From Haloarcula taiwanensis (GTDB lineage: Archaea > Halobacteriota > Halobacteria > Halobacteriales > Haloarculaceae), in contig CP019154.1 of the NCBI GenBank assembly GCA_002844335.1, positions 930,001 through 994,000 on the forward strand: 64,000 bases of DNA, given 5' to 3'. A program made the position numbers and the translations under genes. The notes beneath the pieces are model-generated. The model made no database searches and was not told the DNA's origin. It saw only the letters and a program-made list of their open reading frames with translations. Positions 41,825 through 45,831 of the stretch are shown here, one piece after another; within the stretch, counting starts at the first letter, position 1; the number at the start of each line of letters is the position of its first letter.

Positions 41825-42910
41825 CTACGGCTCTGGTCTGGTTCCGAGCGTGAGTGCGACTGTCTCCTGTGCCCCGTCGCGCTCGACCAGAACGTCGACC
41901 GTCTCGCCGGGACTGGTCTCCAGTGCGAGGAAGCTTCCGAGCGCCTGTCGCGTCGGCGTCGGGGTGTCGCCCATCTGCCTGACCACGTCACCGCCAGTGG
42001 GAATCGCCGCCCCCGAAATCATCGTCTCCCCGTCACTTCCCTGCAGAACGCCCGCCGCCGGGCCGCCCTCAAGGATGCTGTCGATGTACACGCCAGAGGC
42101 CGGGTCTAGGTCGTTTGCCTCGGCGAGTCGGGGCGACACGCCCCGGAGGCCAACACCCATATACGAGTGATCGTAGTCGCCGGTCTGGATGAGCGACGGC
42201 ACGACACGCTGAGTCAGCGGGGCCGAGATGGCGAATGCGACGTTGTCGCCGCCGCCCGAATTGATGACGCCGAGTACGTCGCCGTCTAGCGTGACCAATG
42301 GTCCGCCGCTGTTGCCTGGGTTGACGGGGGCGTCGGTCTGGACCGCGTCTGCGATGGAGAAGTTGTTCGCGCTCTGGAGCGTGCGGTCGACGCCGCTGAC
42401 GATACCCGCAGACACTGACCCGGACAGCCCGAACGGGTTCCCGATAGCGACGACTTCGGTCCCGACGGTGGGTTCAGTCTCGGCAAACGAGAGCGGTGTC
42501 ACGTCCGGCGTCGCACCGACACGGAGGACCGCAAGGTCGCTGTACACGTCCGCACCGACCACGGAGGCGGAGCGCCAGCCGGTGTCTGCGAAGCGGACGT
42601 AGTATTCGTCTCCGCCCGCGACGACGTGTTCGTTCGTGACGATATGCTCATCGTCGATGAGGAACCCGCTCCCCTGCCCACCACGGGCGTCTTCGGCGTA
42701 CACCCTGATTGAGACGACGGCATCGGCTACCGCCCGGTACACGTCGGTGTAGACACTGTCTGACTGTGCGAGTGCGTCGGCCGACCCTGACTGATCCCCG
42801 GTGTCACCGCCAGAGGTGCTGTCTGTCCCGGGACTCTGACAGCCAGCCGTGGCCGCGACAGCTGTCCCGAGGGCTCCCAGCATCGCCCGGCGAGTGAGAG
42901 ACTGTTTCAT
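41825..42910 (-). CDS. HtrA/DegP-like serine protease, Tat lipoprotein
   Basis: The 361-residue protein starts with a twin-arginine signal (TRRAMLGALGTAVAATAGC) whose lipobox cysteine is C24, so it is anchored outside the membrane. The trypsin-like domain has H95 (TNEHVV), D125 (SDLAVLRV) and S201 (PGNSGGPL), a complete triad. A PDZ domain follows at about 250-355 (GVYIDSILEGGPAAGVL). It is an extracellular quality-control protease; Tat secretion in folded form is usual for haloarchaeal lipoproteins. Confidence 0.95.
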   Translation of the reverse strand: MKQSLTRRAMLGALGTAVAATAGCQSPGTDSTSGGDTGDQSGSADALAQSDSVYTDVYRAVADAVVSIRVYAEDARGGQGSGFLIDDEHIVTNEHVVAGGDEYYVRFADTGWRSASVVGADVYSDLAVLRVGATPDVTPLSFAETEPTVGTEVVAIGNPFGLSGSVSAGIVSGVDRTLQSANNFSIADAVQTDAPVNPGNSGGPLVTLDGDVLGVINSGGGDNVAFAISAPLTQRVVPSLIQTGDYDHSYMGVGLRGVSPRLAEANDLDPASGVYIDSILEGGPAAGVLQGSDGETMISGAAIPTGGDVVRQMGDTPTPTRQALGSFLALETSPGETVDVLVERDGAQETVALTLGTRPEP

Positions 42911-43362: not shown

Positions 43363-43393
43363 GTTAATAATAAGCCCGCACTTATTTATTAAC
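43363..43393 (+). promoter_or_regulatory. large AT-rich inverted repeat upstream of the metal P-type ATPase
   Basis: GTTAATAATAAG (43363-43374) and CTTATTTATTAAC (43381-43393) are near-perfect inverted arms separated by six bases; a third copy of TTAATAAG lies at 43429-43436, about 23 bases before the ATG at 43459. The third copy resembles a TATA box at the right distance for a leaderless transcript. The palindrome is a good candidate operator for a metal-responsive repressor such as an ArsR/SmtB- or DtxR-type protein (inference). Confidence 0.55.
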
Positions 43394-43458
43394 TAATCCC
43401 AGTTTGTGGGCCATATTTAGCAGCTGGATTAATAAGACCGGGTAGCCTAGCACCGGTA

Positions 43459-45831
43459 ATGACGGAGTCCGACAGCTGTTCGGATGGTGGTGCGTGTGTC
43501 GGCGCGGGTGACGACGGCCCTCCGACAGTGACAGACGGAGAACGGACGCCGCAGGTCGCACAGCTGTCCGTCCCGGAGATGGACTGTGCCTCCTGTGCCG
43601 GGAAGGTCGAGAATGCGCTCGGGGCGGTCGACGGTATCAGAGCCGTCGAGACGCGCCCGACCACAGGAACGGCCGTCGTCACGTACGACCGGACGGCAGT
43701 GACAGAGCGGGACCTCGTGACGGCCATCGAGAGCGCCGGCTACGAGGTCACGGAGACGGCTGGGGAAGACGAGACGGCGACGGGAGGGCCCGACGAGAGT
43801 GAGTCGCCCTGGACCAGCCCGCGGGCGCTGAAAACCTGGGTCAGCGGCGTGTTCGTCGCCTTCGGCCTCCTCTTCGAGTTCCTGCTTCGCGGCGCGAACG
43901 CGCAGGTCGGGGCCGTGCTTGGGTTGCCGCTGCACGTCGCCGATATCCTTTTTATCGTCGCCGTGGCGACCGGCGGCCAGGAAATCTTGCGTGGCGGCTA
44001 CTACTCCCTGAAAAACCGGAATCTGGACATCGACCTGCTGATGTCCATCGCCATTCTGGGCGCGCTTACTGCCAGCTTGGCTTTCGGCGAGGCGCTGTAC
44101 TTTGAAGCCGCGACGCTCGCGTTCCTGTTCAGCGTCGCGGAACTGCTGGAACGCTACTCAATGGACCGCGCGCGGAACTCGCTGGAAGAACTGATGGACC
44201 TCTCGCCCGACGAGGCGACAGTTCTGCAGGACGGCGAGGAGACGACAGTCCCCGTCGACGAGGTACAGGTCGGCGATGTCGTCGTCATCAGGCCCGGCGA
44301 AAAGATTCCGATGGACGGCGAGGTCGTCGATGGGACCAGCGCAGTCAATCAGGCTCCGATCACCGGCGAGAGCGTCCCGGTCGACAAGACCGACGGTGAC
44401 GAGGTGTACGCCGGGACCATCAACGAGGAGGGGTATCTGGAAGTGCAGGTCACAGCGGCGGCCAGCGACAACACCCTCTCGCGCATCGTCAAGATGGTCG
44501 AGGACGCCCAGTCGAACAAGACCGAGCGCGAGCAGTTCGTCGAGCGCTTCTCGGCGTACTACACGCCGGTCGTCGTCGCCTTCGCCGTCCTCGTGACGCT
44601 GGCGTCCCCTACCGTATTCGGCGTAGCGTGGTCGACCGCCGTCGTGCACGGGCTGACGCTGCTGGTGCTGGCCTGTCCCTGCGCGTTCGTCATCTCGACG
44701 CCTGTCTCAGTCGTCTCCGGCATCACCAGCGCCGCGAAGAACGGCGTTCTCATCAAGGGCGGGAACCACCTCGAAGCGATGGGCGCGGTCGACGTGGTCG
44801 CCTTCGACAAGACCGGCACGCTGACGAAAGGCGAACTGACCGTCACCGACGTGATTCCGCTGAACGGGAACACCGAGGACGAGGTCCTTCGGTGTGCCCG
44901 TGGGCTCGAACAGCGGAGCGAACACCCCATTGGCGAGGCCATCGTCGCAGAGGCGGGAACGACCGGCGTCGAGAGCGCCGACGTCGATGACTTCGAGAGC
45001 ATCACTGGGAAAGGCGTCCGTGCAGACCTCGACGGGACGCCCCACTACGCCGGGAAACCGGGCCTGTTCGAGGAGCTCGGCTTCGACCTCTCGCATGTCC
45101 ACGCGACCACCGATGGCGGTGTTGTCACCAAAACGACCCAGCAGCTCTGTGAGCGCAACAACTGTCTGGACTTGCTGGAAGATGCCGTGCCTGAACTTCA
45201 GGCCGAAGGAAAGACGGTCGTCATCGTCGGGACAGAAGACGAGATCGAGGGTATCATCGCCGTCGCCGACGAGGTGCGCCCGGAGGCAAGAGCCGCCATC
45301 GCCCGGCTCCGTGACCTCGGCGTCGAGCGGACGGTGATGCTCACCGGCGACAACGAGCGAACGGCGGGGGCTATCGCACGGGAAGTCGGCGTCGACGAAT
45401 ACCAGGCCGAACTCTTGCCTGACGAGAAAGTCGCCGCTATCGAGGACCTCGTCGAGGAGCACGACGGCGTGGCGATGGTCGGCGACGGCATCAACGACGC
45501 GCCGGCGCTGGCGAGCGCGACTGTGGGAGTCGCCATGGGAGCAGCCGGCACGGACACGGCGCTTGAAACGGCTGATATCGCCCTCATGAGCGACGACCTC
45601 TCGAAACTCCCGTACCTGTACGAACTGGCGAACGACGCCAACGGCGTCATCCGGCAGAACATCTGGGCCAGCCTGGCGGTCAAAGCTGGCCTCGCCGTCG
45701 CTGTTCCGTTCGGTCTCGTTCCCATCTGGGCGGCCGTGCTCGCGGGCGACGCCGGGATGACGACGGCCGTGACCGGGAACGCGATGCGGCTCTCACGGGT
45801 CCGGCCGGAAAGCGGTGTCGACGAGCCGTAA
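43459..45831 (+). CDS. heavy-metal-transporting P1B-type ATPase (Zn/Cd/Cu class)
   Basis: The 790-residue pump has a cysteine-rich start (SCSDGGACVG), one HMA domain with MDCASC (C43 and C46), a CPC motif in the sixth helix (C406-P-C408), the phosphorylation site FDKTGTLTKG (D450) and the hinge MVGDGINDAPAL. The CPC motif is shared by Cu- and Zn-type pumps; the length and layout are closest to ZntA/CadA. Another cysteine pair lies in QQLCERNNCLDLL. It exports soft metal ions. The upstream palindrome suggests metal-induced expression. Confidence 0.93.
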   Translation: MTESDSCSDGGACVGAGDDGPPTVTDGERTPQVAQLSVPEMDCASCAGKVENALGAVDGIRAVETRPTTGTAVVTYDRTAVTERDLVTAIESAGYEVTETAGEDETATGGPDESESPWTSPRALKTWVSGVFVAFGLLFEFLLRGANAQVGAVLGLPLHVADILFIVAVATGGQEILRGGYYSLKNRNLDIDLLMSIAILGALTASLAFGEALYFEAATLAFLFSVAELLERYSMDRARNSLEELMDLSPDEATVLQDGEETTVPVDEVQVGDVVVIRPGEKIPMDGEVVDGTSAVNQAPITGESVPVDKTDGDEVYAGTINEEGYLEVQVTAAASDNTLSRIVKMVEDAQSNKTEREQFVERFSAYYTPVVVAFAVLVTLASPTVFGVAWSTAVVHGLTLLVLACPCAFVISTPVSVVSGITSAAKNGVLIKGGNHLEAMGAVDVVAFDKTGTLTKGELTVTDVIPLNGNTEDEVLRCARGLEQRSEHPIGEAIVAEAGTTGVESADVDDFESITGKGVRADLDGTPHYAGKPGLFEELGFDLSHVHATTDGGVVTKTTQQLCERNNCLDLLEDAVPELQAEGKTVVIVGTEDEIEGIIAVADEVRPEARAAIARLRDLGVERTVMLTGDNERTAGAIAREVGVDEYQAELLPDEKVAAIEDLVEEHDGVAMVGDGINDAPALASATVGVAMGAAGTDTALETADIALMSDDLSKLPYLYELANDANGVIRQNIWASLAVKAGLAVAVPFGLVPIWAAVLAGDAGMTTAVTGNAMRLSRVRPESGVDEP

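Follow-up and report, generated by a model that had tools for sequence, protein, structure and literature searches.

The closest described systems are those of the nickel regulator NikR. In Escherichia coli, a protein with RHH and NikR_C domains and the ligands H, H, H and C represses nickel uptake (nikABCDE). Its operator, GTATGA-N16-TCATAC (PMC7055735), has half-sites that lie 22 bp apart, centre to centre. The NikR protein of Helicobacter pylori recognizes AT-rich pentamers (TRTTA / TAWTA) in hemi-operators that are two helical turns, or 20 bp, apart, and binds its own promoter (PMC5385501). Where sites in that species overlap the start site or core promoter, the genes are repressed; locations further than 50 bp upstream are verified for ureA (induced) and phbA alone, and direct activation of ureA was left open (PMC5385501). 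The targets named in the available part of that paper are uptake, urease and other genes, with no P1B exporter among them. For δ-proteobacteria, the NikR signals GTGTTAC-N13/14-GTAACAC and its reversed form were described, which are inverted repeats of 27-28 bp whose half-site sequence drifts between lineages, and the targets are nikMNQO nickel uptake and hydrogenase genes (PMC545781). Among haloarchaea, the trans-acting regulator CopR (VNG1179C) of Halobacterium salinarum, a copper-related member of the Lrp family with a TRASH domain, controls a copper P1-type ATPase (PMC5605881; review PMC3600143).

Here we describe an AT-rich palindrome upstream of a heavy-metal ATPase gene of Haloarcula taiwanensis. 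The window is a stretch of 64,000 nucleotides (C1:930001-994000 of G000, a genome of 3.72 Mb). In our judgement, the palindrome is probably the operator of a diverged NikR protein encoded in trans (RHH and NikR_C domains, named NikR2 below), which would activate exporter genes when metal-loaded and repress its own gene. The candidate system resembles that of E. coli in the domains and ligands of the regulator and in the 22-bp distance between half-sites, but differs in the half-site sequence and in the targets, which are exporters and the regulator's own gene instead of nickel uptake. With H. pylori it shares AT-rich half-sites two helical turns apart and a predicted site at the regulator's own promoter, the distance being 22 rather than 20 bp. 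The δ-proteobacterial signals are likewise inverted repeats, whereas the targets here are exporters. CopR and the proposed NikR2 would both be trans-acting haloarchaeal regulators of metal P-type ATPases, but they belong to different protein families.

The following features were identified in the window:

43363-43370, forward strand: half-site 1, GTTAATAA, with the core TTAATAA at -95 to -89 from the ATPase ATG; conserved columns at a fixed position in Haloarcula and other Halobacteria.

43386-43393, forward strand: half-site 2, TTATTAAC, with the core TTATTAA at -73 to -67; conserved in the alignments, and the same 22-bp pair occurs in the nikR promoter.

43418-43423, forward strand: TAGCAG element at the BRE position (-41 to -36), class-wide TARCAG; strongly conserved in the 66-row alignment.

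43429-43435, forward strand: TTAATAA where a leaderless promoter has its TATA box (-30 to -24), earlier noted as a third half-site; conserved in the alignment.

43447-43450, forward strand: CTAG word (-12 to -9), often conserved in the alignments of the module.

43459-45831, forward strand: P1B-type heavy-metal ATPase of the Zn/Cd/Pb (ZntA/CadA) kind, 790 aa, with an N-terminal HMA domain; above the cut-offs of TIGR01525 and TIGR01512.

The ATPase contains the Pfam domains HMA, E1-E2_ATPase and Hydrolase, and scores 520.2 bits against the cadmium-family model TIGR01512 (cut-off 313.5). It aligns with the structure 4umv at the CPC-x4-S-x-P motif and at the membrane Lys and Asp of ZntA, three places that have a role in ATPases of this kind. 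An ordinary HtrA/DegP-type serine protease gene with a PDZ domain lies upstream on the opposite strand (41825-42910, reverse strand).

The palindrome at 43363-43393 (GTTAATAATAAGCCCGCACTTATTTATTAAC, as read from the window) is real and far from chance. The predicted inverted repeat was confirmed as two exact 8-base arms, GTTAATAA and TTATTAAC, with 15 bases between them and 22 bp from centre to centre; the longer arms of the 31-bp repeat pair only through a one-base bulge (CTTAT-T-TATTAAC), and conservation of the inner arms was not found in the alignment of 66 ATPase upstream regions. The pattern GTTAATAAN{5,25}TTATTAAC has a single match in the genome, and the reversed control pattern has none. 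When up to two mismatches were allowed, TTAATAA-N15-TTATTAA was found at two places genome-wide, the ATPase palindrome and the start of a nikR-like gene (one place for the reversed control pattern).

The word TTAATAAG at 43429-43436 occurs only once in the window (0.07 copies on average in shuffled sequences), and its predicted location 36 bases further on is correct when counted from the end of the palindrome at 43393. A strict 16-base pattern for this site recovered the ATPase alone in the own genome. Leaderless mRNAs make up 72% of the protein-coding transcripts of Haloferax volcanii, and TTWT is reported as the TATA motif of haloarchaea (PMC4983044). Counted from the ATG as +1, the final TTAATAA occupies the TATA place of a leaderless transcript, and the third half-site is therefore first of all a TATA box; any role beyond that would be putative. 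The original prediction of three half-sites thus holds in that all three are real, conserved and fixed in spacing, but the third lies at the leaderless TATA position and is not callable as a protein half-site on present evidence. It is an unusual TATA box: with crudely placed control starts, TTAATAA was present at -32 to -21 in none of 789 control upstream regions and TTWWWW in 33 of them. TARCAG-type elements also precede CDF and other genes with the module. In the window and its relatives, TARCAG differs from the haloarchaeal BRE consensus CGAAA (PMC4983044), and it may recruit a special TFB.

Counted from the ATPase ATG, the complete promoter module consists of TTAATAA at -95, TTATTAA at -73, TARCAG at -41, TTAATAA at -30 and often CTAG at -12. 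In the upstream regions of ATPase orthologues these sites keep fixed positions, nearly all without indels. We collected 99 such regions, 26 from the genus (two duplicates, L030/L031 dropped) and 73 named ones (L033-L037, L052 and L102 unused). The core-promoter part was found with at most four mismatches in 93 of the 99, beginning 41-42 bases before the start codon in 90 of these 93. Removal of redundancy left 69 regions, and in alignment A1 of 66 rows (L095, L097 and L109 left out) the conserved elements are TARCAG, TTAATAA and a pair of TTANTAA cores whose centres lie 22 bp from each other.

A sequence-only model of the module trained on the ATPase promoters (R1) has matches in 30 of 32 genomes of the genus, and in 208 of 292 genomes and 52 of 76 genera of the class (E at most 0.01). 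Within the family (86 genomes), R1 has a match on the same strand, at most 700 bp upstream, for 72 of 124 ATPase matches (E at most 1e-200), and the 52 without the module are mostly less similar paralogues. Conversely, 75 of the 89 R1 matches in the family are near an ATPase start. Twelve of the 14 located elsewhere were fetched, and the families of five products were assigned by domain search and the rest by resemblance: two precede CDF genes (L244, L245), two SpoIIAA-like genes and three ABC-transporter ATPases (L242, L243, L248, L250, L251), one each a DUF7541 membrane protein, a metallo-beta-lactamase fold protein and another P1B ATPase, and two are without a clear gene (L247, L249). We know of no metal-related role of the SpoIIAA-like and ABC-transporter ATPase genes. 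Other CDF genes with the module are at L145, L146 and L086; the weaker matches L148, L149 and L152, inspected by eye, had no convincing gene. Since the matches fall mostly at ATPase starts and also at CDF genes, the module marks mainly a metal-export gene set rather than a single gene.

No regulator gene is adjacent to the ATPase in the window, as the original prediction stated, and clustering of the neighbour genes of 79 ATPase loci gave no consistent adjacent regulator. DtxR-like, small HTH and TFB genes were rejected as candidates, being located several kb off in plasmid islands and inconsistent in occurrence. In relatives, however, a NikR-family gene adjoins the ATPase: the two stand side by side in divergent orientation, separated by the module, in G150, G048 and G053, and lie 2.5 kb apart in G056. 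These cases come from coordinate lists compared by eye rather than from a full count, and the close ones represent three genomes of one genus. In the own genome, a NikR-family gene is found 770 kb from the palindrome:

L151:555-974, reverse strand (G000:C1:1743954-1744373): nikR2, 139 codons; its start is the second palindrome place (at most two mismatches) in the own genome.

The N-terminal domain of NikR2 matches PF01402 (RHH) with 26.5 bits (cut-off 20.5) and the C-terminal domain PF08753 (NikR_C) with 74.9 bits (cut-off 22), and the protein is similar to the NikR structures 2bj1 and 1q5v (E about 4e-14). Orthologs of NikR2 were identified in 290 of 292 genomes of the class. The residues that, by alignment to 1q5v, we take to be the four nickel ligands (H, H, H, C) are kept in all 67 of 67 orthologs. 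At the same time, NikR2 scores below all NCBIfam equivalog cut-offs (82.2 vs 83 for PRK02967, 78.2 vs 105 for PRK04460 and 70.4 vs 175.45 for TIGR02793), and no nickel uptake system was found among the ORFs around its gene in L237. The canonical NikR of the same genome (G000:C1:2629231-2629641, L236) has the same two Pfam domains but, unlike NikR2, is above the PRK04460 cut-off, and the two proteins are ~25% identical. The canonical gene is divergent from a cbiM-like gene, and the GTATTAC-type repeats between them (L236:920-1032) resemble an operator of canonical NikR. The non-canonical NikR2 on one side and the canonical NikR next to cbiM on the other suggest a division of labour between export and uptake. 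Since NikR2 occurs in 290 of 292 genomes and the module in 208 of 292, NikR2 must have other work and further targets. As a side observation, two to four genes of the NikR family are clustered within ~10 kb on secondary contigs of five genomes (G006:C3, G012:C10, G015:C2, G017:C2, G023:C5).

The promoters of nikR2 and of the ATPase share their main signal. Class-wide, the nikR2 upstream region contains TTAATA at about -29 and, 22 bp from it and immediately before the ATG, a GTTAATAC-type site; this pair, which spans about -30 to -1, overlies the TATA box and start codon. TTANTA pairs at this distance occur in 37 of 57 nikR and 32 of 69 ATPase upstream regions, and in none of the 789 controls, a set rebuilt by dropping 105 entries because its first version held ATPase promoters. 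Among the 12 genus-wide R1 matches with E of 0.1-1 outside the ATPase modules, five are at nikR2 starts (G000, G012, G015, G022, G031), one is a module that precedes the gene of a small membrane protein, and six have no assigned gene. In the opposite direction, a model built from 57 nikR promoters alone (R2) finds nikR starts, and its best two other matches (E of 0.0074 and 0.0094) are sites 1 and 2 of the ATPase promoters of G009 and G019, on the opposite strand. Half of the 18 R2 matches that are not at nikR-family genes lie on ATPase promoters (the G026 match, with an unidentified gene, excluded). With a matrix trained on nikR, 57 of 69 ATPase regions exceed the 99th percentile of the controls, and 43 of the 69 score higher than any control. 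The reverse test, with the ATPase-trained matrix on nikR promoters, performs moderately (AUC 0.88), and only 3 of 57 exceed that percentile. One of the nikR half-sites is also the TATA box, and part of its conservation therefore needs no regulator. The original prediction expected sites in front of further metal genes and of the gene for the regulator itself, and this was borne out at nikR2, CDF genes and ATPases.

These similarities point to NikR2 as the best candidate regulator of the ATPase operator, although as a binding protein it is predicted from sequence. One NikR tetramer would grip both TTANTAA half-sites, which share one face of the double helix at a distance of two helical turns. 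The pair precedes the core promoter of the exporter genes, at -95 to -67, and the most likely prediction is therefore that NikR2, loaded with a metal, activates them; it would help TBP and TFB to load on the TARCAG/TTAATAA core promoter and thus switch export on. At nikR2 itself, the location of the pair over TATA box and start codon suggests autorepression. Metal export may thus be under the control of a family of sensors that is known chiefly for its role in nickel uptake. The notion that NikR2 represents a second, efflux-dedicated NikR branch, near-universal in Halobacteria and working as a metal-loaded activator of ATPase and CDF genes and an autorepressor beside the canonical uptake NikR, stands in our view at about even odds. 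Besides the moderate reverse matrix test, the double use of one nikR half-site as TATA box, the scores below the equivalog cut-offs, the wider occurrence of NikR2 and the narrow range of the close-neighbour cases, two considerations weigh against the NikR2 model: the known NikR proteins of E. coli, δ-proteobacteria and H. pylori act mainly on uptake according to the available sources, and a third factor could bind both promoters.

The same protein could instead act as a repressor, with metal-free NikR2 bridging half-sites 1 and 2 and the TATA-box TTAATAA by looping or co-operative binding until metal releases it. This is unlikely in our opinion, even though all three sites share TTANTAA, their distances of 22, 43 and 65 bp are close to whole helical turns, and the last of them is so unusual at the TATA position (0/789 controls). 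Against these points, the NikR proteins of E. coli and H. pylori are described in the available sources as binding DNA when metal-loaded, the TTAATAA at -30 is accounted for as a TATA box, and its TARCAG surroundings are unlike those of sites 1 and 2. A metal-sensing repressor was also the idea of the original prediction; the upstream position of the pair fits an activator better than a repressor.

We give a still smaller chance to another factor that would read the TTANTAA pairs and regulate the ATPase as well as nikR2; an Lrp/AsnC-TRASH protein similar to CopR would be an example. In its favour, proteins of the Lrp type bind to phased sites. The control of the copper ATPase by CopR in Halobacterium (PMC5605881; PMC3600143) also lends it some weight, but among regulator genes nikR2 alone has the site recurrently, it adjoins the ATPase in relatives, and the NikR operator of E. 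coli has the same 22-bp spacing (PMC7055735).

It is very improbable that the sites are merely basal promoter elements (TATA, BRE and upstream AT-rich sequence) kept for strength with no specific regulator: one of the three sites is indeed the TATA box and TARCAG could be a TFB recognition element, but sites 1 and 2 lie 67-95 bp upstream, occur mainly at metal-export genes and nikR2, and form a 22-bp pair that is absent from all 789 control regions. A chance AT-rich island, for which low complexity alone would speak, is refuted by the class-wide conservation at fixed spacing and can be dismissed.

The preferred reading, with NikR2 as activator of exporters and repressor of its own gene, provides a metal exporter found throughout an archaeal class with a concrete candidate regulator, an operator and a regulon. 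In our literature search, which covered few subscription papers, neither the control of this exporter nor a haloarchaeal NikR regulon was found, and a search for NikR with efflux or P-type ATPases, judged from the listing, gave no NikR-controlled exporters. If the reading is true, NikR splits into uptake and export branches within one cell, and the two promoters would present a clean archaeal case of one operator pair activating or repressing by position alone.

Two further observations concern the ATPase loci. A ZntA-CDF island (L045-L049) has identical promoter regions in Haloarcula amylovorans, Haloarcula japonica, Halorussus halobius, Halorussus marinus and Halosegnis rubeus, which points to recent transfer. 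Small HTH genes and a TFB gene of the island itself lie 6-8 kb downstream of the start of the ATPase. The module is absent from the ATPase paralogues in G005 (L031) and G006 (L030), from the named loci L085, L098, L108, L110 and L112, and from L069, which has no clear promoter. Several of the paralogues without the module have other palindromes, of the TTGGAATATTCCAA or TTTGGCGCACGCCAAA type, and an unrelated regulator-like gene family recurs upstream at five named loci of this kind; perhaps these paralogues answer to a second system that controls the same family of exporters.
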